The translations under genes and the position numbers were made by a program. A DNA stretch of 64,000 nucleotides from positions 402,501 through 466,500 of the forward strand of contig NZ_UHFH01000003.1 in the NCBI RefSeq assembly GCF_900459225.1, in the 5' to 3' direction. Within the stretch, counting starts at the first letter, position 1, and each line of letters begins with the position of its first letter. Under the pieces are notes generated by a model. That model worked only from the letters and a program-made list of their open reading frames with translations. It did no database searches and was not told the origin of the DNA. The DNA comes from Streptococcus dysgalactiae subsp. dysgalactiae. GTDB taxonomy: Bacteria > Bacillota > Bacilli > Lactobacillales > Streptococcaceae. This document shows positions 16,425 through 64,000 of this stretch, piece after piece.

Positions 16425-17473
16425 TGAGTACCTCCTTTTCTAAGCAACCATAAGAAACACGGAAAACCAACCAGACTAACGAGGGCAGATAGGGGTGTTT
16501 CATAAGGAGGATTGAGATTGCGGCATGCAAAATCAACCCATAGCATGAAACTAGCTCCTAATAAGGCAGATAGGGGGATAATCTGGCGATAATTTTTGGC
16601 AGCAAAGACCTTGATGAGATGAGGAACCATCAGACCAACAAAGGAAATACTTCCAGCGATAGCCACAGCTGCCGAAGATAATAGAAGAACCAAGAGCATA
16701 AAGATGACACTCATCAACTTGGTCCTTTGGCCAAGAGCCTTTGACTGATAGTCGCTCAAACTAAGAATAGTGAGGTGATAAGATAAGAGCTGTGCAAGGA
16801 CAAGGCCGGCCACGACAAGAGGTGCTATGTAGGCCACCATCTGCCAGTTAACGCCGACTAATCCTCCTGCTTGCCAACCGATAATGGCATTAGCCAGATG
16901 ATAGTAATTAGTGATACCTTGACCTAGTGCTGATAGCAGTATGGAAACCATAGCTCCTGCCAGAACAAGGCGAAGCTGATGATAGCCTTTTCTAGCTTGG
17001 TAAGAAAGTCCAAATACTAAAGCAGCTGCAAGGCAAGAACCCAACAAAGACAGCAGAATAATGAGAGAGTAGTGCAGATGGGGCACAAAAGCGTACGCCA
17101 AAACCAAGGCTAATCCAGCGCCAGAATTAATACCCAAGAGGCCAGGCTCAGCAATAGGGTTGCGCGTGATGCCCTGCATAATTGCACCAGAAACAGCGAG
17201 GGCAGCCCCAACTAAAGCAGCAGCCATTAGTCGAGGGATACGAATATCAAGAAGGACATTGGCCTCATGGCCTCCTTGCTTTCCGAGAAAAATACGGCTG
17301 ATATCCTGATGAGATAGATGAATGGCTCCGAAGCGAAGATTGCAATAGATGGCAAGGACTAAGCTTAGGCTGATAAGAGCAAAAAGAAGCCAAAAAGTCT
17401 GTGACTTAGTGACTCTTTTAGTTTTTTGAGTAGGTAAATAGATGTAATCAGGTGACTTATGCATTACTTTCAC
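16421..17473 (-). CDS. fhuB: Siderophore ABC transporter permease FhuB
   Basis: A 350-residue FecCD-family permease with [43 protein letters not shown] and the coupling-loop segment [13 protein letters not shown]. The first 25 residues are polar before the first helix; the start used overlaps the 3' end of fhuD by 17 bases, and an internal ATG a few codons later (about 17464) is also possible. It pairs with FhuG. Confidence 0.9.
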
Positions 17474-18395
17474 TTGAGAGAATTGCCTTTCGTAAGGTCT
17501 TCAATTGGTATTCCAAAGACAGTGGGTCTGTAAAATAAAAGACATTAGCATTGACTTTAATGACGTGATTTTTCTGAACGGCTGGAAGAGATTTCCAAAG
17601 ATCGCTTTCATATAAGGCGGAGCCAGTCTTGTCGTCTTCAGCAGCAACCACTACATAATCTCCAATGTAGTCTGGAAGGACTTCTTGGGATAGAGACAGG
17701 TAGCCTTGTTTAAAGACATCCTGTTTGACTTTTTCAGGAGCATCATAGTGGAAAGCTTGGTGGATAATCTCCCCACCGCGTCCCCAGTCTTTACCGAAGA
17801 GGTAAATCTCTTTTTCGTAAAGTCCCATAATGGTAAATGTTGCTTTGTCACCTGTAACAGCCTTGACCTCTTTTTCATAAGCTGCTGTTTTTGTTTCCCA
17901 GTCTTTTTGCCATTTGGCTGTTTCTTTTTCTTTGTTAAAGACACGTCCAAAGTCCGAGAAGACTTGGAGATAATCCCGTTTACGGTATTCAATCAAAATA
18001 ACAGGAGCGATTTCTGCCAATTGTTTGATATTTTCTTCTGTAGAGCCCACCACAATAACATCAGGTTCTAATGCAGTGATAGCTTCTAAATCAGTCGCAG
18101 CCACTTGTTTAGCTTTTTTAATCGTCTTAGCAAGGACAGGGTTTTTCTTGTCGTAAGAAGTGACACCGACTAAGTTTAAATCTAATTTTTTGAGGTAACC
18201 AGTATAAGTGGAAGCCAGACTAACCACTCGCTTTGGTTGGCTAGGAATATCTCCATAGTAGGTCATGCCAGCAATTTTTGGCATACTTGATAGGCTATTT
18301 GAACTGGAATTTGGCTTACTGCTTGTTTGATTACCACAGGCAACTAAGGTAATGGTTGTCAAACAAAGTGTTAATAGTAGGGCTAATTTTTTCAT
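17457..18395 (-). CDS. fhuD: Siderophore-binding lipoprotein FhuD
   Basis: Substrate-binding subunit, 312 residues, with a lipoprotein signal peptide ending in the lipobox LVAC (Cys at about 20) and a serine/asparagine-rich linker. The periplasmic-binding (TroA/FhuD type) fold shows in [26 protein letters not shown] and EPDVIVVGS. It sits on the outer face of the membrane and delivers ferric siderophore to FhuB/G. Confidence 0.9.
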
Positions 18396-18419
18396 GTATT
18401 CTATTCTCCTAGAATAAAT

Positions 18420-19202
18420 TTATTGAAGCTGATAGGTCAGCAATATTGGGCAGTTGTGGATAGGATCATCAATAAGTTGTGCCTTGATGTGGAAAAGATC
18501 TTGGATAACGGCTGGCGTCATCACTTCTCTGACAGAGCCAACGTATTTGATTTGTCCCTCTTTCATGGCAATCAGATGATCAGAGTAACGTGCTGAAAGA
18601 TTAAGGTCGTGAAGGACCATCACCATCGTCTTACTTGATGTTTGATTCAAGCTTTTGAGTAAGTCTAAGATTTCTAGTTGATGGTTCATATCGAGATAGG
18701 TTGTTGGTTCATCTAAAAAAATGGTATCAGTATCTTGAGCCAATGCCATAGCAATCCAGACTCGTTGTCGTTGTCCACCAGATAGGGTATCGACAGGTTG
18801 GTTAGCATAGGCTGTTATCTTAGTAGCTTCCATGGCCCAATGAATGGTATCTTTATCAGTTTGGCTGAGTTTTCCCAGGTAGGATTGGTGAGGAAATCGA
18901 CCGTAGGAGACTAATTCGTAAACCGTTGTGCCATCAGTTGTCTCTTGGACTTGAGGAAGTAGAGCAATCTTTTTAGCCACTTCTTTGGTCGCAAGCTTCG
19001 CAATACTTTGTCCATCTAAATAAACGGCCCCTTTGTTGAGTGGCAATAGTCTGGTTAATCCTTTTAGCAAAGTTGATTTACCAGAACCATTGGCGCCAAT
19101 AATAGTTGTTATTTCTCCTTTAGGAATGCGAAGGGACAAATCGTCTATAATAGTAATCTTATCATAAGCAATGGCAATTGCTTCAGCACTGATTTGTGTC
19201 AT
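18420..19202 (-). CDS. fhuC: Siderophore ABC transporter ATPase
   Basis: A 260-residue ABC ATPase of the iron-siderophore/B12 type: Walker A GANGSGKST, signature LSGGQRQRV, Walker B TIFLDEPTTYLD. First gene of the fhu operon; in S. pyogenes the same gene is often named fhuA or siuA. The leader of about 110 bases carries an inverted repeat (19286-19307) that may be a metal-regulator operator. Confidence 0.93.
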   Translation of the reverse strand: MTQISAEAIAIAYDKITIIDDLSLRIPKGEITTIIGANGSGKSTLLKGLTRLLPLNKGAVYLDGQSIAKLATKEVAKKIALLPQVQETTDGTTVYELVSYGRFPHQSYLGKLSQTDKDTIHWAMEATKITAYANQPVDTLSGGQRQRVWIAMALAQDTDTIFLDEPTTYLDMNHQLEILDLLKSLNQTSSKTMVMVLHDLNLSARYSDHLIAMKEGQIKYVGSVREVMTPAVIQDLFHIKAQLIDDPIHNCPILLTYQLQ

Positions 19203-44976: not shown

Positions 44977-47900
44977 GTGGAGAAGAAACAATGTTTTTCC
45001 CTTCGAAAACACAAATTAGGAACGGTTTCAGTTTTAATTGGAAGTCTGTTATTCCTTGCAACAAGTAGCGTATCAGCAGAGGAGGTAACAACTAGCAGCC
45101 TAACGGATAATGTAGGTGTCACTCAGTTGCCAGCGCAAGAGCATCAGGCTAAAGAATCGCCAGTTTTAGCCGTACCTATAACAAAGGATTCAGACATGGC
45201 AGGGGAGGTTGGAGTTGAAGTTGGTAAAGGTGCCCAACCACCAATAGAATCAGCCACACAAGAAGATAATAGAACCAATAAGGGCGGTGAGGCAACAGAT
45301 ACTCAACAGACCTCGGAGTTGCCTCCAGTCAATAGGGATGTTCATGACTGGGTTAAGACAAAAGGAGCCTGGGATAGAGGATTCAAAGGTCAAGGCAAGG
45401 TGATTGCGATTATTGATACTGGCATTGATGCTAATCATCAAGCTATGCGTTTAACCGATGTGTCTGCGGCAAAAGTAACTTCCAAGGAAGCTATGGAAGA
45501 GCGTAAAAAAGCAGCGGGCATACAGTATGGCGTGTGGTTAACCGATAAAGTGATCTTTGCTCATAATTATGTGGAAAATAATGACAAGGTCAAAGAAGTT
45601 AAGTTTGATTTGTTTGGAGAGGAAGATTTGGAAGGCCTTGATATAAAGGTTGATGTTCAAAAGGTTAAGTCATCCAAGTATTATCTTCCACAAGCGGTTG
45701 AGTCCCCAAAAGAAACGGTTATTAAGATAGAGGATATCCAGGGATCACTTGAAATTGACTGGCCAGAAATAGATGATGATACCAAATGCGAATCACACGG
45801 TATGCACGTTACGGGGATTGCCGCAGGAAATGGCATCGAAGCAGCAGCTACTGGAGAGCGCTTTTTAGGAATTGCTCCAGAAGCACAGGTCATGTTCATG
45901 CGTGTTTTTGCAAATGATGTCATGGGAACAGGGGACTCTCTCTTTATTAAGGCTATTGAAGACGCAGTGGCTTTAGGAGCTGATGTCATTAACCTTAGCC
46001 TTGGATCTGCCAACGGTTCCCAACTTAGTGGTAACCGAGCTCTTATGGAGGCTATTGAAAAGGCAAAACAAGCAGGTGTATCTGTGGTAGTTGCGGCAGG
46101 AAATGAGCGCGTGTTTGGTTCTGATCACGATGATCCGTTTGTGACTAATCCTGATTATGGCTTAGTGGGCTCTCCGTCGACAGGTCGTACGCCAACGTCT
46201 GTAGCGGCCATTAATAACAAATGGGTCATTGAACGCTTAATGACCGTTGAAGGGTTACAGGATCGAGCTGATCTTAACAATGGTAAAGCGATTTATGCAG
46301 AATCTGTTGATTTTAAAGATATCAAAAATAGCCTTGGTTATGACTTGTCCTATCCGTTTGTGTATATTGAGCAATTAACAGAAGCGGGTTACACAGCTAA
46401 GGATGTTAAAGATAAAATCGTTTTAATTGAACGTAATCCAGAGAAAACCTATGATGACATGATTGCACAAGCCAAAGCCCATGGCGCTATTGGTGTTGTC
46501 ATGTTTAATAATGTCCCTGGTCAAGCCAATCGTTTAGTACGTTTGAGCTCGGCTGGAATGGTACTTCCACTTGCCTTTATTTCTCATGAATTTGGTAAGG
46601 CTATGTCAACCTTAAATGGTAATGGGACAGGAAATTTAATGTTTGATAGCAGCCTATCAAAAGCGCCTAGTCAAAAGGGAAATGAGATGAATCATTTTTC
46701 AAACTGGGGACTGACTTCGGATGGTTATTTGAAACCTGATGTAACAGCACCTGGTGGGGATATTTACTCAACTTATAATGATAATCACTATGGTAGCCAA
46801 ACGGGGACTAGTATGGCTGCTCCTCAAATTGCAGGAGCTAGCCTATTGATTAAACAATATCTTGAGCAAATCAAGCCTGATCTGCCAAAAGACCAAGTAG
46901 CAGATTTGGTTAAAAATATCATGATGAGTAATGCTCAGGTCCATGTGAACCCAGCGACAAATGTTACAACCTCCCCACGTCAGCAAGGAGCTGGGTTACT
47001 AAACCTTGAAGCGGCAGTAAGCAGTGGCCTTTATCTAACAGGAAAAAATAACTATGGCAGCATTTCTTTGGGAAATGTCACAGATAGTTTTTCATTTGAG
47101 GTAACTGTTCATAATTTATCTCAAGAAGCTAAAAGCTTGCGTTATGAGACAGAGCTGTTAACAGATAAGGTTAATCCTGAAGAAGGGCGATTTACCTTGA
47201 CCTCTCGCTTGCTAAAAACCTATCCGGGTGAAGTCATTGAAGTTCCTGCTAATGGTCAAAAAACAATCACTATCACTCTGGATGCGTCAGCTTTCACGGA
47301 AGAGCTAAGTCAGCAAATGCCAAACGGTTATTATTTAGAAGGATTTGTGCGTTTTGTGGATAGTAACAATCAACAAAACAACCAGGTTACGATTCCTTTT
47401 GTAGGATTTAAAGGCAAGTTTGAAAACCTTGCGGTCGTCGAAGAATCAATTTACCAACTAAAAGCTAAAGGAGAAAAAGGCTTTTATTTTGATGAGTCAG
47501 GCCCTAAAGATGATATCTATGTTGGCAAACATTTCACCGGCTTAGTGACATTAGGAACAGATACTAATGTCTCGATAGCGACTATCTCAGATAATGGCTT
47601 GCATACTCTTGGAACATTTAGAAATCAAGATGGTAAATTCATCTTAGGTCGAAACAATCAAGGACAGCCTGTCTTAGCGATTTCACCAAATGGAGATAAT
47701 CATCAAGATTTTGCTGCTTTTACAGCAGTCTTTTTACGGAAATACCAAGGTCTAAGAGTCAGTGTTTATCAAGCCAGTGACAAGGAACATCAATCTCCTC
47801 TTTGGGTTAGCTTGAAAAGTTTTAAAGGGGACAAAAATTTTAATAGTGATATTCGTTTTGCGAAATCAACGACCCTATTAGAAACAGAATTTTCTGGCAA

Positions 47901-49920
47901 ATCTTCAACAGGTGCTGATTTACCGGATGGTCATTACCATTATGTGGTATCTTATTACCCAGACGTAGTTGGTGCCAAGCGTCAGGAAATGACGTTTGAG
48001 TTAATTTTAGATCGTCAAAAACCTCTTTTAAATCAGGCAACATTTGATCCGAGGACCAATCAATTCAGTCCAACGGCCATAGAAGATCTTGGTCCGTCAG
48101 GTGTTCTAAGAGATAGTGTCTTTTACCTGGAAACTAAAGATAACAAACCTTACACCATTAGCATTAATAATGGTTACAAATATGTTTCTGTAGCAGACAA
48201 TAAACAATTTGTGGCTCGTCAAGCAGATGGTAGTTTCATCTTGCCGCTTGATAAGGCAGAGCTAGGTAACTTTTATTATATGGTGGAAGACTTTGCAGGT
48301 AACATTGCCATTGCTAAATTAGGGGATCATTTGCCAAAAACTATCGGCAATGACTTGGTGCCTCTGACACTGACAGATGGCAATTATCAGAAAAAAGTTG
48401 GTTACGAGGATAATCTTGACATGGTAGCAACTGATACCGGATTGGTTACCAACCAAGCTCAGCTAGCCGTCAGCCACCGCAATCGTCCTCACAGTCAATT
48501 GGTGACATTAAATCAAGACTTCTTTATTTCACCAAATGACGATGGTAATAAAGACTTTGTAGCTTTCAAAGGATTGCCAAACAAGACCTATAATAACTTA
48601 CAGGTCACGGTTTTTGCTGCAGAAGATCAACAACGTTTAACGCCTATTTGGTTCAGTCAACCAGGTGGAGACCTATCAGATATTGAAAGTACTGCTTGGC
48701 GTGGAATCACTGCTGGAGGTGAGAAAATTCTATCAGGCAGTTACCAATACGTTATCACCTATCATGATGACAATAATCATGCGCAGGAGGAGATCTTCAA
48801 AGTATCAGTGAATCATAACAAACCAATCCTGACGCAAGGGAGTTTCTGTAAGGATGATGATGTTGAATTCTTCACTCCAGGGCAGCCACAGGCGATTAGT
48901 AGCACAGGAATCGCTCGTGTCGAGGTGTTCTATCTCACTAAGAAAAATGGTCGACCATTTGATGTGACCGAGTCTCAACATTCTGTTACTGTTAGTGATA
49001 ACAAGGTTCAGATTCCTCAAAATGAAGATGGTTCTTATACCATTTCAACAGTAGAGGGCGTATCTCTAGGAGATTATTATTACCTTGTGGAAGATAAGTC
49101 TGGTAATATTGCTTTTACGACGCTGCAGAATCTAAGAGCGGTTGGTCAAGGAAAAGGGGTCTTAAGTTTAGCGCTAGATGTAAATGCTCTAGAAGGAAAA
49201 TACCCGATTAGTTTTACCTACCTTGTCCGTGATGCAGCCGGTAAACCGATTGAGACTTTGGATTATTTCAACCACTCAGCTAACAGCCTGATATTACCAT
49301 TTGGACAATATACGGTTGAACTGTTGACTTATGACACTAATCTTGTTGAGCTGCAATCTGACAAGGTAGTTAGCTTTACCTTAACGGAAGATAACCCTTT
49401 CCAACACATTGCCTTTGCAATGGCCAAAATGGATTCTTCTCAAGTGACGGTTCATTTTGATCGCTTGTTACCAGAAGGCAGTCAGGTTAGTCTTAAAACG
49501 CCTCAAGGCCATTTGATTCCTCTCAACCAATCTCTATATGTTCCAAAGGCTTATGGAAAAACAGTTAGAGATGGCAGTTACCAACTTGTGGTAACCCTGC
49601 CAAAAGGTTATCGTATTGAGGGAGAGACATGGGTGCAGGTTAAACAAAATGAAGTTTATGAGTTAGTCTTACGCCTAGTGAAGGATGCAAGTGAGCAGTT
49701 GCTTGTCTCAGATAATCATCAACAGGGGCTTACCTCAGTTGAGACGAACACAGAGAGTTCTGCGGTACCGACGATGGTAAGCTCTTCACAAAATCAGAAA
49801 AAGTCAGAAGCGGTAGTTCAATTACCAACAACAGGTGATAAGGCACTGGTGAAATGGAGTATACTTGGCTTCTTACTGATTATCTTAGCCGCTCTGTCTA
49901 GCCGTAAAAAGATAGATTAA
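44977..49920 (+). CDS. cepA: Cell-envelope subtilisin-like protease (SpyCEP/ScpC/PrtS type)
   Basis: A 1647-residue surface S8 protease; SpyCEP of S. pyogenes cleaves IL-8 and other CXC chemokines. GTG start after AGGAGGA (44964-44970). Signal peptide (1-34) with a KHKLGTVSVLIGSLLF YSIRK-like motif; catalytic D147 (AIIDTGID), H274 (SHGMHVTG), oxyanion N376, S612 (GTSMAAP); PA insert about 445-565; Fn3-like stalk domains; LPTTG at 1616-1620, membrane helix and basic tail for sortase. SpyCEP self-cleaves between Gln and Ser of a YRPQS site; here the region reads YLPQA (Q239-A240). Cys271 lies three residues before H274. Same length as SpyCEP but clearly diverged. The symbol is a family label. 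Confidence 0.92.
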   Translation: MEKKQCFSLRKHKLGTVSVLIGSLLFLATSSVSAEEVTTSSLTDNVGVTQLPAQEHQAKESPVLAVPITKDSDMAGEVGVEVGKGAQPPIESATQEDNRTNKGGEATDTQQTSELPPVNRDVHDWVKTKGAWDRGFKGQGKVIAIIDTGIDANHQAMRLTDVSAAKVTSKEAMEERKKAAGIQYGVWLTDKVIFAHNYVENNDKVKEVKFDLFGEEDLEGLDIKVDVQKVKSSKYYLPQAVESPKETVIKIEDIQGSLEIDWPEIDDDTKCESHGMHVTGIAAGNGIEAAATGERFLGIAPEAQVMFMRVFANDVMGTGDSLFIKAIEDAVALGADVINLSLGSANGSQLSGNRALMEAIEKAKQAGVSVVVAAGNERVFGSDHDDPFVTNPDYGLVGSPSTGRTPTSVAAINNKWVIERLMTVEGLQDRADLNNGKAIYAESVDFKDIKNSLGYDLSYPFVYIEQLTEAGYTAKDVKDKIVLIERNPEKTYDDMIAQAKAHGAIGVVMFNNVPGQANRLVRLSSAGMVLPLAFISHEFGKAMSTLNGNGTGNLMFDSSLSKAPSQKGNEMNHFSNWGLTSDGYLKPDVTAPGGDIYSTYNDNHYGSQTGTSMAAPQIAGASLLIKQYLEQIKPDLPKDQVADLVKNIMMSNAQVHVNPATNVTTSPRQQGAGLLNLEAAVSSGLYLTGKNNYGSISLGNVTDSFSFEVTVHNLSQEAKSLRYETELLTDKVNPEEGRFTLTSRLLKTYPGEVIEVPANGQKTITITLDASAFTEELSQQMPNGYYLEGFVRFVDSNNQQNNQVTIPFVGFKGKFENLAVVEESIYQLKAKGEKGFYFDESGPKDDIYVGKHFTGLVTLGTDTNVSIATISDNGLHTLGTFRNQDGKFILGRNNQGQPVLAISPNGDNHQDFAAFTAVFLRKYQGLRVSVYQASDKEHQSPLWVSLKSFKGDKNFNSDIRFAKSTTLLETEFSGKSSTGADLPDGHYHYVVSYYPDVVGAKRQEMTFELILDRQKPLLNQATFDPRTNQFSPTAIEDLGPSGVLRDSVFYLETKDNKPYTISINNGYKYVSVADNKQFVARQADGSFILPLDKAELGNFYYMVEDFAGNIAIAKLGDHLPKTIGNDLVPLTLTDGNYQKKVGYEDNLDMVATDTGLVTNQAQLAVSHRNRPHSQLVTLNQDFFISPNDDGNKDFVAFKGLPNKTYNNLQVTVFAAEDQQRLTPIWFSQPGGDLSDIESTAWRGITAGGEKILSGSYQYVITYHDDNNHAQEEIFKVSVNHNKPILTQGSFCKDDDVEFFTPGQPQAISSTGIARVEVFYLTKKNGRPFDVTESQHSVTVSDNKVQIPQNEDGSYTISTVEGVSLGDYYYLVEDKSGNIAFTTLQNLRAVGQGKGVLSLALDVNALEGKYPISFTYLVRDAAGKPIETLDYFNHSANSLILPFGQYTVELLTYDTNLVELQSDKVVSFTLTEDNPFQHIAFAMAKMDSSQVTVHFDRLLPEGSQVSLKTPQGHLIPLNQSLYVPKAYGKTVRDGSYQLVVTLPKGYRIEGETWVQVKQNEVYELVLRLVKDASEQLLVSDNHQQGLTSVETNTESSAVPTMVSSSQNQKKSEAVVQLPTTGDKALVKWSILGFLLIILAALSSRKKID

Positions 49921-51930: not shown

Positions 51931-52224
51931 ATGCCAAGAAAAACCTTTGATAAAGCCTTCAAACTCTCTGCTGTCAAACTCATCCTTGAGGAAGAGCAGT
52001 CTGTAAAAATGGTTAGTTCAACTTTAGAAATTCATCCCAATAGTCTTTATCGATGGGTTCAAGAATATGAAAAATATGGAGAAAGTGCGTTCCCAGGATA
52101 CGGGAGCGCACTTCATCATGCTCAATTTGAGATAAAAAAACTTGAAAAAGAGAATAAACTGCTACAGAAGGAATTAGCTCTTCTAAAAAAGTTCCAGGTC
52201 TTCTTGAAGCCAAACCGGAAATAA
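51931..52224 (+). CDS. IS3-family transposase OrfA
   Basis: A 97-residue helix-turn-helix protein (MPRKTFDKAFKLSAVKLIL, HPNSLYRWVQEYEKYG) ending in a leucine-zipper-like coil (FEIKKLEKENKLLQKELALL). It contains the slippery heptamer A-AAA-AAG at 52185-52191 that lets ribosomes shift -1 into OrfB to make the full transposase. Confidence 0.9.
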   Translation: MPRKTFDKAFKLSAVKLILEEEQSVKMVSSTLEIHPNSLYRWVQEYEKYGESAFPGYGSALHHAQFEIKKLEKENKLLQKELALLKKFQVFLKPNRK

Positions 52225-53080
52225 AATTTCGGTTTCTGAAGGAAAATAGTGTTAGCTTGACTATTCATCACGCCTATCAAACTCTTCAAGTTTCCCGTTC
52301 AGGTTTCTATGCTTATTTAAAACGTCGTCCATCTTCAAGGCATGTTGAGAATGAAGCTTTGAAGGAAATGATTAAAGCCATTTTCTATGAACATAAAGAG
52401 CGTTACGGAAGTGTACGAATTACCCAAGAACTTTGTAGACGTGGCATGCATGTCAATCATAAACGTGTTGGTAGACTCCTTCATCAGTTAGGTCTCTATG
52501 CTAAAGGAAGTCATATAACTATAAATACTATAACCGTCGATGTTCTTCATTAACTCGTCCCAATCTTGTTAATCAATGTTTCCAAGCGACTGGTAAGAAT
52601 AAATTATGGCTAGGAGACTTAACCTATATCCCTACACAAGAAAGAATACTTTATTTATCTGTCTTTATAGACGTTTATAGTAGAAAGATTGTTGGTTGGG
52701 CAATTGGCCGACGTAAGCAAGACAAGTTGGTAACAGAGGCTTTCAATCAAGCTTATGATAGAGAAAAGCCTAAAGAAGGGGTAATCGTCCATACAGATCA
52801 GGGGTCTCAATATACCGGGGCACGATTTCAGGCCCTACTTAGACGGAAAAAATGTAAGTCCAGTATGAGTCGAAAAGGTAATCCATACGATAATGCACTC
52901 ATGGAAGCCTTTTATAGAACATTAAAAAGAGAGCTTGTCAATAATGCTCATTTCGCAACTATTGAGCAAGCTCAGCTTGAGATTTTTAAATATATTGAGA
53001 CTTACTATAACCCTAAACGTCTGCATTCAGCTTTAGGGTATCTCTCACCTGTAGAATTTGAAAAAATAGTTACTAATTAG
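52185..53080 (+). pseudogene. IS3-family transposase OrfB, frameshifted
   Basis: The -1 frame is open from the slippery site (KPEIKFRFLKENSV) through HTH_21 and into the rve integrase core, but a one-base deletion after 52512 (GTC-ATAT against GTCGATAT in copy 2) ends it at 52553. The rest of the DDE domain (HTDQGSQYTG, NALMEAFYRTLKRE) continues in another frame to 53080. This copy cannot make full-length transposase but could be moved by the enzyme of copy 2. Confidence 0.9.
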
Positions 53081-53145
53081 CTTAACTTTAGGTCTATTTT
53101 TTCTTGACAAGTCCAGGGGTGTTTTTTATGTCAGAATAGGGAAGT

Positions 53146-54337: not shown

Positions 54338-56338
54338 ATGATGAAAAAACCATTTTACATTACGACCCCCATCTATTACCCATCTGGTAAATTACACATC
54401 GGTTCTGCCTACACCACCATTGCCTGTGATGTTTTGGCGCGCTACAAGCGCCTGATGGGACATGAAGTCTTCTATCTTACAGGACTTGATGAACATGGGC
54501 AAAAGATTCAAACCAAGGCAGCAGAAGCAGGCATTAGCTCTCAAACCTATGTTGATAACATGGCAAAGGATGTCAAAGACCTTTGGCAATTGCTAGATAT
54601 TTCTTATGATAAATTTATCCGGACAACTGACGATTACCACGAAGAGGTCGTTGCTGCTGTTTTTGAAAAATTACTGGCGCAAGATGACATTTACCTTGGT
54701 CAATACTCTGGTTGGTATTCTGTCTCTGATGAAGAATTCTTCACTGAAAGCCAACTAGAAGAAGTTTTTAGAGATGAAGACGGTAAGGTTATTGGAGGGA
54801 TTGCTCCTTCGGGTCACCAAGTAGAGTGGGTATCAGAAGAATCTTACTTCCTACGCCTTAGCAAATACGCTGACCGTCTCGTAGCCTTCTTTAAAGAGCA
54901 ACCTGACTTTATCCAACCAGATGGTCGTATGAATGAAATGTTGAAAAACTTTATTGAGCCAGGTCTAGAAGATCTAGCAGTCAGTCGTACTACCTTCACT
55001 TGGGGTGTACCTGTTCCATCAAACCCAAAACATGTGGTTTATGTGTGGATTGATGCCCTCCTAAACTATGCGACAGCCCTTGGTTATGGTCAAATGGACC
55101 ATGCTAACTTTGACAAATTCTGGAATGGAACGGTTTTCCATATGGTTGGAAAAGATATCTTGCGTTTCCACAGTATCTACTGGCCAATCTTGCTGATGAT
55201 GCTTGATCTACCAATGCCAGAACGCTTAATTGCCCATGGTTGGTTTGTTATGAAAGACGGTAAAATGTCTAAATCAAAAGGCAATGTGGTTTACCCAGAA
55301 ATGTTAGTTGAGCGATTTGGACTTGATTCTCTTCGTTATTACCTCATGCGTTCTTTGCCAGTGGGTTCAGATGGTACCTTTACCCCTGAAGATTATGTGG
55401 GACGTATCAACTATGAATTGGCCAACGATCTTGGTAATTTATTGAATCGTACCGTTGCGATGATTAACAAGTATTTTGATGGCACGGTGCCAGCTTATGT
55501 TGACAACGGGACTGCCTTTGATACTGAGTTAAGTCAGTTGATCGATGCTCAGTTGGCCGACTATCATAAGTACATGGAAGCGGTGGATTACCCACGCGCC
55601 TTAGAAGCCATTTGGACTATCATTGCTCGTACCAACAAATACATTGATGAGACAGCTCCTTGGGTGCTAGCTAAAGAAGATGGAGACAAAGCTCAATTGG
55701 CCAGTGTCATGGCACACTTGGCAGCCAGCTTGCGTGTGGTTGCTCATTTGATTCAACCATTTATGATGGAAACATCAACTGCTATCATGGCACAACTTGG
55801 TTTGGAACCTGTTTCTGATTTATCAACACTTACTCTAGCAGCTTTTCCTGCCAACACAAAGGTTATTGCCAAAGGGACACCGATTTTCCCACGTCTTGAC
55901 ATGGAAGCTGAAATCGACTATATCAAAGCTCAAATGGGTGGCAGCTCAGCTATTTTCCAAGAAAAAGAATGGGTACCTGAAGATGTCGAGCTCAAATCTG
56001 AAAAAGACGACATCAAATTTGAAACGTTTGACGCTGTGGAAATCCGTGTGGCAGAAGTTAAGGAAGTATCAAAAGTGGAAGGTTCTGATAAATTGCTTCG
56101 CTTTAGATTAGATGCAGGGGACGGGCAAGACCGTCAAATCTTGTCAGGTATTGCCAAATTCTATCCCAACGAACAAGAATTAGTTGGCAAAAAACTACAA
56201 ATTGTTGCTAACCTTAAACCTCGTAAAATGATGAAAAAATATATCAGTCAAGGGATGATTCTATCAGCAGAGCATGGGAATCAGCTAACGGTTTTAACCG
56301 TTGATCCATCTGTCCCAAATGGAAGTGTGATTGGTTAA
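54338..56338 (+). CDS. metG: Methionyl-tRNA synthetase
   Basis: Class I synthetase of 666 residues. ATP-binding HIGS in [18 protein letters not shown] in [15 protein letters not shown], anticodon-binding helical domain, and a C-terminal tRNA-binding OB domain (about 560-666: [29 protein letters not shown]). Either ATG of the leading pair may be used. Confidence 0.96.
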
Positions 56339-56387
56339 ATTCCAGAAGTTGCTAACTGAAACTATTTTAAGCATTCCAAAACATGAA

Positions 56388-56418
56388 AAAGGTCGTGGAC
56401 GATTGTCCCGGCCTTTTT
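56388..56418 (+). terminator. Terminator after metG
   Basis: AAAAAGGTCGTGGAC and GTCCCGGCCTTTTT pair around GATT with minor mismatches. Confidence 0.82.
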
Positions 56419-56564
56419 GTCTTGCATACATACAGACATATAAAAACCTTGGTTTTGTCACTCTAGAATTACCTTTTGTCCCTTAAAAAATGATTCTGTT
56501 CGTTTGTTTGTTATTTTTTACATAAGCTTTACAACTACAGTATGACGGTATTGGAGAAGTTGTG

Positions 56565-56610
56565 CTACTATATATTGTCATAAAAATATTGCAAAGCACT
56601 ATATCTTGTG
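56565..56610 (+). promoter_or_regulatory. Paired NrdR boxes upstream of nrdFIE
   Basis: ACTATATATTGT (56567-56578) and ACTATATCTTGT (56598-56609) match the NrdR box core and are spaced by exactly 31 bp, three helical turns, as usual for this repressor. TTGTCA (56575-56580) could be the -35 with a -10 in the second box, so NrdR would cover the promoter. The leader to nrdF is then about 260 bases with no other recognised element. Confidence 0.85.
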
Positions 56611-56871
56611 GTATCATGGTTTTATAAAAAATTAAGTATGCTTAATTTTTCGAGAAAAAAACGAACAGTGATAGTTGTTCAATAAGACAGTTGATAACAT
56701 TCTAAATAGGAATGATCAAGCACCTAACATTTACCAATAGAAAAGCGCTGCTTAAATGCAAGTCTTTTTGTGCTACTTAAAACTCAGTGACGTTCTTTCT
56801 CTCACCTAGTGACATCTTAGGCTTAATGGCACTAGTTTCTCTTGTGAAAATATAAGCCTTGAAGGAGACGA

Positions 56872-57885
56872 ATGACTCAACATTACTATGAGCGATCTCA
56901 ATCGCCAATTGATTACGCCCTATCTAAGACCAAAAAGCAGTTGCGTTCGGTCAACTGGAACCACCTCAATGACGACAAGGATTTGGAGGTTTGGAACCGT
57001 GTTACCCAGAATTTTTGGTTACCTGAAAAAGTCCCTGTTTCTAATGACCTAACCTCTTGGCGGTCTCTAGGTGAGGACTGGCAGCAATTAATCACCAGAA
57101 CTTATACTGGCTTAACGCTGCTAGATACGGTGCAAGCAACTGTTGGAGATGTGGCACAAATTCAGCATTCACAAACAGACCATGAGCAAGTCATCTACAC
57201 GAATTTTGCCTTTATGGTTGCCATTCACGCACGGTCTTACGGGACAATTTTTTCGACTCTTTGCAGCAGCGAACAAATTGAAGAAGCTCATGAATGGGTG
57301 GTTTCCACTCAAAGTCTACAAGAACGAGCGCGTGTCTTAATCCCCTACTATACTGGCAATGATCCGTTAAAGTCAAAAGTGGCAGCAGCTATGATGCCAG
57401 GTTTCTTATTGTACGGCGGTTTTTACCTTCCATTTTACTTATCAGCCCGCGGGAAAATGCCAAACACCTCTGACATCATTCGCCTTATTCTGCGGGATAA
57501 GGTGATTCACAATTATTACAGTGGCTATAAATACCAACAAAAAGTAGCAGATCTTAGTCCAGAAAAACAGACTGAGATGAAGACATTTGTGTTTGACTTG
57601 CTCTATGAATTGATTGATTTGGAAAAAGCTTATTTAAAAGAATTGTACGATGGTTTTGATTTGGCAGAAGACGCTATTCGTTTCAGCCTCTATAACGCTG
57701 GAAAGTTTCTTCAAAATTTGGGATACGAGTCGCCATTTACAGAAGAAGAAACACGCGTTTCACCAGAAGTTTTTGCCCAGCTATCCGCGCGTGCAGATGA
57801 AAATCATGACTTTTTCTCAGGAAATGGTTCTTCTTATGTCATGGGCATAACAGAAGAAACCACCGATGACGATTGGGAGTTTTAA
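56872..57885 (+). CDS. nrdF: Class Ie (metal-free) ribonucleotide reductase radical subunit NrdF
   Basis: R2-like beta subunit of 337 residues. In ordinary class Ib NrdF the metal site is Asp, Glu, His, Glu, Glu, His. Here D85 (LTLLDT), H119 (FMVAIHARSYG) and H213 (RDKVIHNYY) remain but the three glutamates are V116, P176 (MMPGFLLYGGFY) and K210. This Val/Pro/Lys set defines the metal-free class Ie group described in Aerococcus and S. pyogenes, in which a nearby tyrosine, here Y123, becomes a DOPA radical with NrdI and superoxide. First gene of nrdF-nrdI-nrdE under paired NrdR boxes. The radical chemistry is inferred from the family. Confidence 0.93.
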   Translation: MTQHYYERSQSPIDYALSKTKKQLRSVNWNHLNDDKDLEVWNRVTQNFWLPEKVPVSNDLTSWRSLGEDWQQLITRTYTGLTLLDTVQATVGDVAQIQHSQTDHEQVIYTNFAFMVAIHARSYGTIFSTLCSSEQIEEAHEWVVSTQSLQERARVLIPYYTGNDPLKSKVAAAMMPGFLLYGGFYLPFYLSARGKMPNTSDIIRLILRDKVIHNYYSGYKYQQKVADLSPEKQTEMKTFVFDLLYELIDLEKAYLKELYDGFDLAEDAIRFSLYNAGKFLQNLGYESPFTEEETRVSPEVFAQLSARADENHDFFSGNGSSYVMGITEETTDDDWEF

Positions 57886-57888
57886 GGG

Positions 57889-58362
57889 ATGGCAGAGCTG
57901 ATTATTGTTTATTTTTCATCTAAGTCCAATAACACCCATCGCTTCGTGCAAAAATTAGGGTTGCCCGCCCAACGTATCCCGATAGATGATAGCCCAGTTG
58001 AGGTAGGTGTTGATTACCTACTGATTGTACCAACCTATGCTGCGGGCGGTTCAGATGCTAAAGGAGCAGTACCTAAACAAGTCATTCATTTTCTCAATAA
58101 CCCTACTAATCGTAAGCATTGTAAGGGAGTGATTTCTTCTGGAAATACCAATTTTGGAGATACCTTTGCCATTGCAGGACCTATCATTTCTCAAAAATTA
58201 CAAGTGCCTCTTTTACACCAATTTGAGCTATTAGGGACCGCTACAGATGTCAAAAAGGTGCAGTCGATTTTTGCCCGCTATCGACATCAGAAACACTCGA
58301 AACTTAAAAACAGACCGATGAACACAATACAGAAAGGACAACCTCATGTCACACCCCAATGA
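57889..58362 (+). CDS. nrdI: NrdI flavodoxin-like RNR activator
   Basis: A 157-residue flavodoxin-fold protein with the FMN phosphate loop YFSSKSNNTHRFV, the YAAGGSDAKGAVPKQV loop and SGNTNFGDTFAIAG. In class Ib it supplies superoxide to build the Mn(III)2-tyrosyl radical; with class Ie NrdF it drives tyrosine hydroxylation to DOPA. It sits 3 bases after nrdF and overlaps nrdE by 17. The C-terminal 30 residues are basic and Gln/Pro-containing. Confidence 0.92.
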   Translation: MAELIIVYFSSKSNNTHRFVQKLGLPAQRIPIDDSPVEVGVDYLLIVPTYAAGGSDAKGAVPKQVIHFLNNPTNRKHCKGVISSGNTNFGDTFAIAGPIISQKLQVPLLHQFELLGTATDVKKVQSIFARYRHQKHSKLKNRPMNTIQKGQPHVTPQ

Positions 58363-60532
58363 GTCATATCTCTCATTCAATGCCTTAACCCGATTTAAAA
58401 AAGCAGACGGAAGTTACCATTTTGATAGCGATACCATTGCTGTTGAACGCTACCTAGATGAACATATTTCTCCCAATCGAATGATGTTTCCATCTTTAGA
58501 AGAGAAACTAGCTTATCTCATTAAGGAAGGTTATTATGAGCAAGCTATCTTTGATCCCTATCCTGATGACGTTATCAAGGAAGCCTTTCAATATGCCTAC
58601 CAACAAGACTATCGCTTTTTAAACTTGATGGGAGCCATGAAATTTTACCAATCTTATGCCTTAAAAACTTTAGATGGCAAGTATTATCTAGAAACAGTTG
58701 AAGACCGTGTGGTCATGAATGCTCTCTTTTTAGCAAATGGGGATCAAACGTTACTATTTAATTTGATAAAGGACATGTTACACAGGCGATTTCAACCAGC
58801 AACACCAACTTTTTTAAATGCTGGTAAAAAACGACGGGGAGAATATATCTCTTGCTACCTTCTGCGTATTGAAGATAATATGGAATCCATTTCACGGGCA
58901 ATAGGGACCAGTCTTCAACTGTCCAAGAGAGGAGGAGGGGTGGCCTTATGCTTGACCAACCTTCGAGAAATTGGGGCACCAATAAAAGGAATTGAAAATC
59001 AGGCAACGGGTATCGTTCCTGTCATGAAATTATTAGAAGATTCCTTTTCCTACGCCAACCAATTAGGACAGCGTCAAGGTGCAGGTGCCGTTTACCTACA
59101 TGCCCATCACCCAGAAGTTCTTACCTTTTTGGATACTAAAAGAGAAAATGCCGATGAGAAAATTCGTATCAAGTCACTAGCCTTAGGGTTAGTTATTCCA
59201 GATATTACCTTTCAATTGGCAAAAGAAAACAAAGAAATGGCCCTCTTTTCGCCATACGATATTAAACGCGTTTATGGTAAGGACATGTCAGACATTTCCA
59301 TCACAGAGGAATATAACAAATTGCTAGCTAATCCAGCCATTAAAAAGACCTATATCAGCGCTAGAAAACTTTTCCAATTGATTGCAGAATTGCATTTTGA
59401 GTCTGGATACCCTTACCTCTTGTTTGATGATACGGTCAATCAGCGTAATCCTCATGCTCAAAAAGGACGGATTGTCATGTCAAATTTATGTTCTGAAATT
59501 GCTCAAGTGAGTACAGAAAGTACCTACAACGATGATTTGAGCTTCAAAGACATTGGAGAAGACATTTGTTGTAATCTGGGGTCAATCAATATCGCTGAAG
59601 CCATGGCTGATGCCAAACACTTTAGCCAGCTAATCACGACAAGTATCAGAGCTTTAGATCAAGTATCAAGAGCTTCTGATTTGTCTTGCGCCCCTTCTAT
59701 TGAAAAAGGCAATGCAGCTAATCACGCTGTTGGCCTAGGAGCAATGAATTTACATGGCTTTTTGGCAACCAATCATCTTTACTATGATTCAGAAGAAGCT
59801 GTTGACTTTACAGATTTGTTTTTCCATACTATGGCCTATCACGCTTTTAAAGCCTCTTGTCAATTGGCTAAAGAAAAGGGGGCTTTTGCCGATTTTGAAC
59901 AATCGACCTATGCCGATGGTTCTTACTTTAAGCAGTATGTGATAGAAGATGCCAAACCTAAAACAAAACGGATTGCTGCCTTGTTAAAAAGTTATGGCTT
60001 CCAATTACCAACTGTTGCTGATTGGAAGGCATTGGTAAGGGATATTCAAACCTATGGCTTAGCCAATGCACATTTATTGGCCGTTGCTCCGACAGGGTCA
60101 ATCAGTTACTTATCTTCTTGCACTCCAAGTTTACAGCCAGTTGTTGCTCCTGTTGAAGTGCGTAAAGAGGGGAATTTAGGTAGAATTTATGTCCCGGCTT
60201 ATCAGATTAATCAAGAAAATTATGCTTATTATGAACGTGGGGCTTATGAAATGGGTCCAGAACCCATTATTAAGATTGTAGCAGCAGCTCAAAAACATGT
60301 GGATCAGGCCATTTCATTGACTTTATTTATGACTGATCAGGCTACCACACGTGATCTTAACCGTTCTTATATTCAAGCTTTTAAACTAAAATGTGCTTCA
60401 ATTTATTATGTTCGAGTGAGACAAGAAGTTTTAGCAGGCAGTGAACAATACGACGAGGATAGCCAGTTGGATATGGTAGATAAAAATGGACTTACAGACA
60501 CAAACAATGAGTGTCAAAGTTGTATGATTTAG
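58346..60532 (+). CDS. nrdE: Class Ib/Ie ribonucleotide reductase catalytic subunit NrdE
   Basis: A 728-residue alpha subunit reducing NDPs. Redox-active cysteines in YISCYLL (C170) and DICCNLGSIN, the radical Cys with Asn and Glu in MSNLCSEIA, the tyrosine pair in IYYVRVRQ, and the C-terminal CQSCMI that takes electrons from NrdH or thioredoxin. No ATP-cone at the N-terminus, as in class Ib. No nrdH lies in the cluster; a separate nrdHEF set is expected elsewhere in the genome, as in S. pyogenes. Confidence 0.95.
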   Translation: MSHPNESYLSFNALTRFKKADGSYHFDSDTIAVERYLDEHISPNRMMFPSLEEKLAYLIKEGYYEQAIFDPYPDDVIKEAFQYAYQQDYRFLNLMGAMKFYQSYALKTLDGKYYLETVEDRVVMNALFLANGDQTLLFNLIKDMLHRRFQPATPTFLNAGKKRRGEYISCYLLRIEDNMESISRAIGTSLQLSKRGGGVALCLTNLREIGAPIKGIENQATGIVPVMKLLEDSFSYANQLGQRQGAGAVYLHAHHPEVLTFLDTKRENADEKIRIKSLALGLVIPDITFQLAKENKEMALFSPYDIKRVYGKDMSDISITEEYNKLLANPAIKKTYISARKLFQLIAELHFESGYPYLLFDDTVNQRNPHAQKGRIVMSNLCSEIAQVSTESTYNDDLSFKDIGEDICCNLGSINIAEAMADAKHFSQLITTSIRALDQVSRASDLSCAPSIEKGNAANHAVGLGAMNLHGFLATNHLYYDSEEAVDFTDLFFHTMAYHAFKASCQLAKEKGAFADFEQSTYADGSYFKQYVIEDAKPKTKRIAALLKSYGFQLPTVADWKALVRDIQTYGLANAHLLAVAPTGSISYLSSCTPSLQPVVAPVEVRKEGNLGRIYVPAYQINQENYAYYERGAYEMGPEPIIKIVAAAQKHVDQAISLTLFMTDQATTRDLNRSYIQAFKLKCASIYYVRVRQEVLAGSEQYDEDSQLDMVDKNGLTDTNNECQSCMI

Positions 60533-60555
60533 AGGAGCTGCATTGAAAAGTAAGT

Positions 60556-60597
60556 AAAGGAGTTTGAGAGCGATCTCAGCTCCTTTTAGCCTTTTTT
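60556..60597 (+). terminator. Terminator after nrdE
   Basis: AAAGGAG-GAGA and TCTC-CTCCTTT arms (60556-60569, 60574-60586) around GCGA, then T-runs. Confidence 0.82.
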
Positions 60598-60656
60598 TAA
60601 ATCGCATTAGAACAGAAGTTACTCTCACTGATTATCCTTAAACAAACAACTGTCGA

Positions 60657-60711
60657 AATAGTTAGAAAATTTTGAAAAAACTATGGTATTTCTTCTAAAT
60701 TTTGTTATAAT
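60657..60711 (+). promoter_or_regulatory. brnQ -10 box with weak CodY-like sequences
   Basis: TATAAT at 60706-60711. AATAGTTAGAAAATT (60657-60671) matches 12 of 15 CodY-box positions and AATTTTGTTATAATA (60697-60711) 11 of 15. CodY control would make sense for a branched-chain amino-acid carrier but the matches are modest in such AT-rich DNA. Confidence 0.4.
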
Positions 60712-60831
60712 AAAAACCAACTATTCAAATGAAGAGCGTTAATAACTGATCATTAGGGTTACTACACTCATTTGAAAGAGTATGATTTATGGAAAGGATG
60801 CTAGTCACGGGATTAGCATAAGTGGTCGCCT

Positions 60832-62166
60832 ATGGTAAAAAAAGGCTTTTTAACAGGATTGCTTTTATTTGGCATTTTTTTCGGAGCAGGGAATCTCATT
60901 TTTCCACCAGCTTTGGGAGTGGCATCAGGTCAAGACTTTTGGCCAGCTATTCTAGGGTTTTGTTTATCAGGTGTTGGTTTAGCTATTTTGACCTTGCTTT
61001 TAGGTACTGTGACGAATGGTGGCTACAAGACAGAAATGGCTCAAAAGTTTAGTCCCTGGTTTTCGCTCACATTCCTTGTTATCCTTTATTTAACTATTGG
61101 ACCCTTGTTTGCTATTCCGAGAACGGCAACTGTTTCTTTCGAGGTTGGATTGAGCCCAATTGTAGGGCACAGTCCTATCGCTTTATTGCTCTTTTCCGCT
61201 TGTTTTTTTGTGGCCGCCTATTTGCTTGCTATTCGACCAAATGGTATTTTAGATAGTGTAGGTAAACTCTTGACACCAGCATTTGCCCTGCTCATTTTAT
61301 TACTTGTCCTAGTAGGAGCTGCTGTTTATGGCCATAACGATAGTGCAAAAACAAGTGTTGAGTATGCAGGAAAAGCTTTTGGTACTGGTATTCTTGCTGG
61401 TTATAATACTCTCGATGCCCTGGCGGCTGTTGCCTTTTGTTTGGTGGCTACAGAAACCCTTAAGAAATTTGGGTTTCAAAGTAAAAAAGAATACCTCTCG
61501 CCTATTTGGGTAGTAGGCATTGTCACCAGCGTCGCTTTTAGTATCTTGTATATCGGTCTGGGCTTTTTGGGAAATAAGTTTCCTGTCCCAGCAGATGTCT
61601 TGGCTGATCCTAATATTAATAAGGGAGCTTACGTGCTATCACAAGCTTCTTACCATTTATTTGGTTCCTTTGGCCGCTTCTTCTTAAGTGTTATGGTCAC
61701 TCTGACTTGTTTTACCACAACGGTTGGATTGATTGTGTCGGTCTCTGAATTCTTTGCTAAAAGCTTCCGTTTTGGTAGATACACGTTTTTTGCTAGTGTT
61801 TTTACTTTTATTGGCTTTTTGATTGCTAATTTAGGTTTGAATGCTGTGATTACTTTTTCTATTCCAGTGCTGACTCTCCTTTACCCAATTGTTATCGTGA
61901 TGGTACTGATTATTTTGATGAACAAATGGGTTCCCTTATCTAAAAAAGGAATGTCTCTGACCATTGGTTTGGTGACCTTAGTCTCCTTTATTGAGGTCTT
62001 AGCTAGCCAATTTCACCAAGACACCTTAACACATTTAGTGGAACTACTGCCTTTTCACGCTGTTTCAATGGGATGGTTGTTACCCACGCTTCTTGGCTTA
62101 GTTGTCGCTTTGCTATTACCAGATAAACAAAAGGGCACATCATTTGATTTAAGTCAATTCGATTGA
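60832..62166 (+). CDS. brnQ: Branched-chain amino-acid carrier BrnQ
   Basis: A 444-residue LIVCS-family sodium or proton symporter with 12 membrane helices: GLLLFGIFFGAGNLIFPPALGVASGQDFW at the start and TGILAGYNTLDALAAVAFCLVA. Imports Leu, Ile and Val, giving a secondary-transport route beside the LivKHMGF ABC system in this window. Confidence 0.94.
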   Translation: MVKKGFLTGLLLFGIFFGAGNLIFPPALGVASGQDFWPAILGFCLSGVGLAILTLLLGTVTNGGYKTEMAQKFSPWFSLTFLVILYLTIGPLFAIPRTATVSFEVGLSPIVGHSPIALLLFSACFFVAAYLLAIRPNGILDSVGKLLTPAFALLILLLVLVGAAVYGHNDSAKTSVEYAGKAFGTGILAGYNTLDALAAVAFCLVATETLKKFGFQSKKEYLSPIWVVGIVTSVAFSILYIGLGFLGNKFPVPADVLADPNINKGAYVLSQASYHLFGSFGRFFLSVMVTLTCFTTTVGLIVSVSEFFAKSFRFGRYTFFASVFTFIGFLIANLGLNAVITFSIPVLTLLYPIVIVMVLIILMNKWVPLSKKGMSLTIGLVTLVSFIEVLASQFHQDTLTHLVELLPFHAVSMGWLLPTLLGLVVALLLPDKQKGTSFDLSQFD

Positions 62167-63056: not shown

Positions 63057-63091
63057 TGGACTTGTCAAGAAAAAATAGACCTAAAGTTAAG

Positions 63092-63949
63092 CTAATTAGT
63101 AACTATTTTTTCAAATTCTACAGGTGAGAGATACCCTAAAGCTGAATGCAGACGTTTAGGGTTATAGTAAGTCTCAATATATTTAAAAATCTCAAGCTGA
63201 GCTTGCTCAATAGTTGCGAAATGAGCATTATTGACAAGCTCTCTTTTTAATGTTCTATAAAAGGCTTCCATGAGTGCATTATCGTATGGATTACCTTTTC
63301 GACTCATACTGGACTTACATTTTTTCCGTCTAAGTAGGGCCTGAAATCGTGCCCCGGTATATTGAGACCCCTGATCTGTATGGACGATTACCCCTTCTTT
63401 AGGCTTTTCTCTATCATAAGCTTGATTGAAAGCCTCTGTTACCAACTTGTCTTGCTTACGTCGGCCAATTGCCCAACCAACAATCTTTCTACTATAAACG
63501 TCTATAAAGACAGATAAATAAAGTATTCCTTCTTGTGTAGGGATATAGGTTAAGTCTCCTAGCCATAATTTATTCTTACCAGTCGCTTGGAAACATTGAT
63601 TAACAAGATTGGGACGAGTTAATGAAGAACATCGACGGTTATAGTATTTATAGTTATATCGACTTTCTTTAGCATAGAAACCTAACTGATGAAGGAGTCT
63701 ACCAACACGTTTATGATTGACATGCATGCCACGTCTACAAAGTTCTTGGGTAATTCGTACACTTCCGTAACGCTCTTTATGTTCATAGAAAATGGCTTTA
63801 ATCATTTCCTTCAAGGCTTCATTCTCAACATGCCTTGAAGATGGAAGACGTTTTAAATAAGCATAGAAACCTGAACGGGAAACTTGAAAAGTTTGACAGG
63901 CGTGATGACTATTCAAGCTAACACTATTTTCCTTCAGAAACCGAAATTT
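63092..63949 (-). CDS. IS3-family transposase OrfB, intact
   Basis: HTH_21 (RYGSVRITQELCRRGMHVNHKRVGRLL) then the rve DDE domain: first Asp in WLGDLTYIPT, second in HTDQGSQYTG, Glu in NALMEAFYRTLKRE. Intact where copy 1 is frameshifted (KESRYNYKYY). The track of 274 codons begins at 63916, but the true product is an OrfAB fusion made by -1 shift at the AAAAAAG heptamer (- strand of 63982-63988). The start coordinate is therefore nominal. Confidence 0.88.
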   Translation of the reverse strand, partial: KFRFLKENSVSLNSHHACQTFQVSRSGFYAYLKRLPSSRHVENEALKEMIKAIFYEHKERYGSVRITQELCRRGMHVNHKRVGRLLHQLGFYAKESRYNYKYYNRRCSSLTRPNLVNQCFQATGKNKLWLGDLTYIPTQEGILYLSVFIDVYSRKIVGWAIGRRKQDKLVTEAFNQAYDREKPKEGVIVHTDQGSQYTGARFQALLRRKKCKSSMSRKGNPYDNALMEAFYRTLKRELVNNAHFATIEQAQLEIFKYIETYYNPKRLHSALGYLSPVEFEKIVTN

Positions 63950-64000
63950 TATTTCCGGTTTGGCTTCAAGAAGACCTGGAACTTTTTTAGAAGAGCTAAT
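63949..64000 (-). CDS. IS3-family transposase OrfA, 3' end only
   Basis: The last codons of OrfA (LALLKKFQVFLKPNRK as in copy 1) read into the window from the right edge and stop at 63949. The rest lies outside. Confidence 0.75.
   Translation of the reverse strand, partial: LALLKKFQVFLKPNRK

Follow-up and report, generated by a model that had tools for sequence, protein, structure and literature searches.

Class Ie ribonucleotide reductases (RNRs) are defined by the loss of three glutamates from the R2 metal site and occur as VPK and QSK variants, and the VPK enzymes described so far are those of M. florum, S. pyogenes and A. urinae, according to PMC11846895. When the R2 proteins of these three species were obtained by co-expression with NrdI, they showed activity at a metal content below 0.2 equivalents, and each had a DOPA radical derived from tyrosine (PMC8463856); for M. 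florum R2, a metal-free DOPA radical has been published in the same source. The QSK R2 of Gardnerella vaginalis is also reported as a metal-free class Ie enzyme with DOPA (PMC11846895). The closest described system to the operon analyzed here is nrdF.2-nrdI-nrdE.2 of S. pyogenes (SPy0425-0427). For that operon, a backup role under trace-metal scarcity was proposed earlier, and it was argued that a DNA-precursor enzyme of this kind escapes the withholding of manganese and iron by the host (PMC8463856).

In this study, an nrdFIE operon of Streptococcus dysgalactiae subsp. dysgalactiae was analyzed. It lies in a window of 64,000 nucleotides, which is the whole stretch of DNA that was examined. 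The operon has the gene order of its S. pyogenes counterpart (PMC6593403, PMC2518855). Its NrdF has the same VPK residues and is 94-96% identical to the proteins named S. pyogenes among the matches listed.

The NrdF metal site and its operon partners

The nrdF gene (56872..57885, + strand) encodes an R2, or beta, subunit of 337 aa in a reading frame that is open throughout. Its translation places D85, V116, H119, P176, K210 and H213 at the metal site, together with Y123. Of the four carboxylates in the class Ib ligand set (D, E, H, E, E, H), three are missing, and where NrdF has V/P/K, the genome's own class Ib NrdF (L001) has E/E/E in the alignment. The sequence-only reading had claimed that V116, P176 and K210 replace the metal-binding glutamates and that D85, H119, H213 and Y123 remain; both statements proved exact when the residues were read in the translation. 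The radical-path residues W49 and Y322 are also kept. The role of the Trp is described in PMC8902622, and that of Y322 may be proposed by analogy with Y356 in PMC8463856. The numbering used here is that of M. florum R2 (D88, V119, H122, Y126, K213 and W52; PMC8902622) minus 3.

Pfam PF00268 and the NCBIfam models NF010572 and TIGR04171 place NrdF in the small-subunit family under the NCBIfam label class 1b; database names for VPK proteins still read this way. The best solved matches were, in order, 6gp2, 9r5l, 7mmr, 7mmp and 6ebo (E-values 2.7e-194 to 2.5e-182); solved structures about 80% identical to NrdF are at hand. The best PDB match, the class Ie R2 of M. florum (6GP2, 6GP3), has the same VPK active site and is 81% identical to NrdF among the matches listed. 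The R2 proteins of 6EBO and the 7MMP series are the next-best solved matches; we take both to come from A. urinae, and the 7MMP series to be class Ie. The term class Ie is applied to 6EBO in PMC8463856. The residue signature, the identity to S. pyogenes NrdF, the best solved match 6GP2 and the nrdFIE order together support the assignment of NrdF as a class Ie (VPK) R2. A rare and non-obvious enzyme subclass, recognized from raw sequence, was confirmed. Judging from the published work on its orthologues, NrdF would hold no metal, and it would need NrdI to form a DOPA radical.

The nrdI gene (57889..58362, + strand) lies directly after nrdF, as the earlier reading had stated, and encodes a flavodoxin-like activase of 157 aa (TIGR00333, PF07972). 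Among solved structures, it is nearest to the NrdI chains in the 6EBO and 7MMP series (7mmr, 7mmp and 6ebq); in the streptococcal NrdI, the loop that precedes the AKGAVPKQVI stretch is shorter than in these chains, and the C-terminal tail is longer. The nrdE gene (58346..60532, + strand) encodes the R1, or alpha, subunit of 728 aa (TIGR04170, PF02867, PF08343), and its first 17 bases are shared with the end of nrdI. An alignment with the genome's class Ib NrdE shows that this NrdE retains the cysteines in the stretches SNLCSE, SCYL and ICCNLGS, as well as the Tyr-Tyr pair and a CxxC at the C terminus, which we take to have catalytic and radical-path roles. All three reading frames are open, and the gene order nrdF-nrdI-nrdE is typical of VPK systems, in that nrdFIE is found in virtually all VPK genomes (PMC11846895).

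The genome (G000; 2.15 Mb) also holds a second RNR system, a class Ib nrdH-nrdE-nrdF operon (L116), in which NrdF has all the metal ligands. A second NrdI is encoded away from both RNR operons (L118 2027-2491, - strand); this stand-alone protein shows weak similarity to the NrdI of the class Ie operon and has no AKGAVPKQVI stretch. At least two NrdI proteins are encoded in all 11 class Ie streptococcal genomes. One NrdD, one NrdR match (C3:386818) and one DtxR-family regulator were found in the genome, the last of these divergent from an operon that resembles an ABC metal transporter by eye.

Two insertion sequence copies, IS3-type by eye, occur at 52173-53115 (+) and 63057-64000 (-) and are 98.9% identical over 944 bp. 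They flank the metG-like, nrdFIE and brnQ genes; the first copy is broken into shorter ORFs, and the match of the second extends to the end of the window. Because the copies are in opposite orientation, the segment of about 10 kb between them could invert by recombination. A recent IS-borne acquisition of the operon is unsupported, since the promoter block before nrdF is common to related species and the streptococcal nrdF sequences form one clade. Elsewhere in the window, four adjacent minus-strand ORFs (15423-19202) resemble by eye a siderophore-type iron ABC transporter, with two permeases, a lipoprotein and an ATPase, and a 1647-aa subtilase-like cell-wall-anchored protein (44977-49920) resembles by eye the streptococcal cell-envelope proteases.

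Candidate promoter and operators upstream of nrdF

A sigma-70-type promoter is predicted at 56589..56617 (+ strand) from its match to the consensus (TTGCAA-17-TATCAT, with TG before the -10). All 11 of the class Ie Streptococcus loci have a candidate of the form TTGNNA-17-TANNNT before nrdF; matches to this consensus are frequent, with 18 in 56300-60900 as against 11.9 in shuffles. Two NrdR-box-like sites accompany this promoter. The distal site, CTACTATATATTGTCA (56565..56580, + strand), agrees with the NrdR consensus at 12 of 16 positions, and the proximal site, GCACTATATCTTGTGG (56596..56611, + strand), called by the same consensus, lies inside the -35/-10 spacer. The NrdR-site calls in this work are based on that consensus and on two boxes about three helical turns apart, which we take to be the NrdR arrangement.

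The two boxes are 31 bp apart and score 25 of 32 against the NrdR consensus, a value reached by none of 200 resampled sequences; the best pair score among 500 resampled sequences was 21 of 32. Box pairs at 31 or 32 bp, scoring 24 to 28 of 32, were found in 8 of the 11 class Ie streptococci, and each of these scores is above those of all 200 resampled sequences. When the spacing was fixed at 31 bp, only G000, G129 and G155 of the 11 stood out. Before the nrdF genes of G185, G142 and G004 there is no NrdR-like pair (16 of 32, with 31 or 32 bp allowed). The 14-base core of the proximal box, CACTATATCTTGTG, has two mismatch-free sites in the genome, one at the class Ie operon and one upstream of nrdH, and with one mismatch allowed it has 7 genome matches versus 3 for the reversed control. 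The class Ib nrdHEF operon is thus also preceded by an NrdR-box-like site, where the best pair is weaker (21 of 32). With a box pair about three helical turns apart and an NrdR gene in the genome, NrdR control of the class Ie operon may be predicted from the sequence. No statement on NrdR boxes at the class Ie operon was found in the accessible portions of the literature; Rodionov and Gelfand (2005) may contain one.

Just after the -10, at 56630..56647 (no strand assigned), there is a putative MtsR/SloR-type element, AATTAA-GTATGC-TTAATT, which has the palindromic 6-6-6 layout of the MtsR/SloR regulon. It sits within a 24-bp perfect inverted repeat (56627-56650); when intergenic sequences were resampled 500 times, 6 of them also had an inverted repeat with 10-bp arms. 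In S. mutans, the SloR element at sloABC has AATTAA arms and a 6-bp spacer, and the SloR-bound element at mntH is TTTTAAGCATACTTAACA (PMC12096823). On its other strand, the nrdF element combines the spacer GCATAC of the mntH element with the arms of the sloABC element. The mtsR-mtsA-like intergenic region of the same genome contains TTAACTATACTTAA, which matches 12 of 14 positions of the element core, and before the class Ib nrdH no MtsR-type element above 9 of 14 was found.

Across the class Ie loci, cores of 12 to 14 of 14 lie just downstream of the -10 in 7 of 11; between 0 and 3 of 200 resampled sequences scored as high. In G012, G185, G142 and G004 the best match is 11 of 14 and lies upstream of the promoter, a score also reached by 10 to 22 of 200 resampled sequences. 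G012 is S. agalactiae-like, and this 11-of-14 match is all that the scan gave there, whereas a putative MtsR site at the S. agalactiae operon has been published (PMC6593403). Over whole genomes, the exact palindrome core shows little enrichment, with strand matches versus the reversed control of 4 vs 3 in G000, 8 vs 1 in G044, 2 vs 2 in G091 and 2 vs 5 in G155. Identification of MtsR sites by their genome-wide pattern was rejected as uninformative overall, and the identification of the nrdF element therefore depends on its position, its conservation and published data. Three of the other occurrences were inspected: the second exact-core site in G000 is upstream of an AhpC-like gene, and in the S. 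pyogenes-like G044 one exact-core site lies beside an aroE-like gene and another has no ORF of at least 120 aa nearby. G044 has a 36-bp inverted repeat with the core TTAAGTATACTTAA (L125 2595-2630), likewise in a stretch with no such ORF close by.

MtsR control of the S. dysgalactiae operon would follow from published work on its orthologue. In S. pyogenes, MtsR directly represses nrdF.2IE.2 without regulating nrdHEF, and nrdF.2IE.2 expression is more than 200-fold higher in vaginal colonization, in which nrdHEF is not induced (PMC6593403). The sequence-only reading had suggested that the operon could serve when the host withholds iron and manganese. This role is supported by the putative metal element together with the published repression (PMC6593403, PMC8463856), and it is already in print for S. 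pyogenes rather than new. An alternative is that the class Ie RNR is used mainly against oxidative stress or as a general backup, rather than in metal starvation. In favor of such a use, S. pyogenes nrdF.2 is reported to depend on PerR and to be preceded by a Per-box-like site (PMC2518855), and NrdR-box-like sites are common to the class Ie and class Ib operons, and the reported Per-box means that metal need not be the sole signal. However, the selective repression by MtsR in S. pyogenes and the presence of the MtsR/SloR-type element at the class Ie operon, with none before nrdHEF, make this alternative unlikely as the main explanation. The two roles are not mutually exclusive.

Conservation of the VPK residues

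Ligand patterns were counted in 114 tblastn alignments (E <= 1e-30) over 112 loci. Three patterns occurred: DEHYEEH in 83 alignments (class Ib), DVHYPKH in 20 and DQHYSKH in 11. The 20 VPK rows represent 18 distinct loci, because L002 and L083 are one locus and L003 and L090 overlap on a contig of the same length. Of 197 genomes searched, which were a sample of a larger genus set, 196 gave a match to NrdF at E <= 1e-60, and 11, the genome under study included, had a class Ie copy at an identity of at least 84%. A protein homologue search scored 7997 candidates, of which 6549 had E <= 1e-100; V/P/K is found in all 120 of those that were listed. V/P/K is shared with the NrdF proteins named S. 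pyogenes, one of the comparisons that the earlier reading had proposed.

A tree of nrdF was built from 46 chosen rows, comprising 24 loci and 22 of the 120 listed proteins. The branch separating the 40 VPK rows from the 6 QSK and class Ib rows has a support of 100/100. The streptococcal sequences form one clade (96/97) of 18 rows, two of which are an unnamed protein and a metagenome record. Within it, the nrdF studied here pairs with that of G129 (99% identical); the neighbor of this pair is S. pyogenes, with weak support (82/34), and all of these share with S. canis a clade that is supported (99/96). P0116, a metagenome protein that bears the name S. pyogenes, clusters with S. didelphis (100/99) and has 79% identity to NrdF; this record is probably mislabelled or mis-binned.

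The retention of the VPK substitutions in all 120 listed homologues and in 18 loci indicates a conserved lineage trait rather than a sequencing error or decay. It is very improbable that NrdF is instead a metal-binding R2 outside class Ie, with one ion held by K210 together with the Asp and His that remain: binding of a single metal by D85, H119 and H213 is conceivable in principle, on chemical grounds that are inferred, but the S. pyogenes and M. florum proteins, which have the same residues and the high identities given above, belong with A. urinae R2 to the enzymes found active with so little metal (PMC8463856). A decayed, non-functional class Ib NrdF, as the loss of three of six ligands beside an intact-ligand class Ib system in the same genome might suggest, is hardly credible and was rejected in view of the uniform replacements in the 120 listed homologues, by the retained Y123, D85, both His, W49 and Y322, by three open genes with the NrdE catalytic residues kept, and by the 65 species that depend solely on a VPK class Ie RNR for dNTP synthesis (PMC11846895).

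Proposed working and relation to known systems

We consider it very likely that nrdFIE encodes a complete class Ie RNR with a DOPA radical made by NrdI, which backs up the class Ib enzyme and is repressed by NrdR and MtsR. In this mechanism, reduced NrdI would convert O2 to superoxide, which would reach the active site of NrdF, and Y123 would be hydroxylated to DOPA and carry a DOPA radical without metal. The former metal site would be filled by K210, D85 and H119. The radical would travel from W49 to the C-terminal Y322, then to the Tyr-Tyr pair of NrdE and finally to the NrdE active-site cysteine. The class Ie operon would serve as a backup for the manganese class Ib NrdHEF in the same cell. 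NrdR may repress both RNR operons while dNTPs suffice; metal-bound MtsR would additionally repress only the class Ie operon, which would thus open at manganese or iron scarcity.

A more tentative proposal, which we hold as possible but rather less than even in probability, is that the class Ie promoter is a two-input gate, ancestral in the pyogenic streptococci and lost or rebuilt in the lineage of G185, G142 and G004. The NrdR box in the -35/-10 spacer and its partner 31-32 bp upstream would read the dNTP level, and the MtsR element just downstream of the -10 would read manganese or iron. If this is true, the metal-free enzyme would be made only when dNTPs and metal are both low, and the class Ib operon would have the dNTP input alone. 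The operator layout bears on the choice between the two enzymes in a cell that carries both.

Compared with the known systems, the class Ib NrdHEF of the same genome belongs to the same protein family, has its own NrdE and shares an NrdR-box-like site upstream; it differs in its full set of metal ligands, in an NrdF only 39% identical, in the presence of nrdH and in an operon with no nrdI. The R2 of Gardnerella vaginalis has Q/S/K instead of V/P/K and is about 58% identical (L013), and its genes are ordered nrdHIEF rather than nrdFIE (PMC11846895). The S. pyogenes-like G044 has the same promoter and operator layout as the operon studied here; its metal element differs by one base per arm, with the spacer GCATAC, and its NrdR-like boxes are 32 bp apart instead of 31. 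In sum, the nrdFIE system is of an already known kind, is nearly known in the species and belongs to a close relative of S. pyogenes; the proposed two-input promoter is a modest, testable addition.
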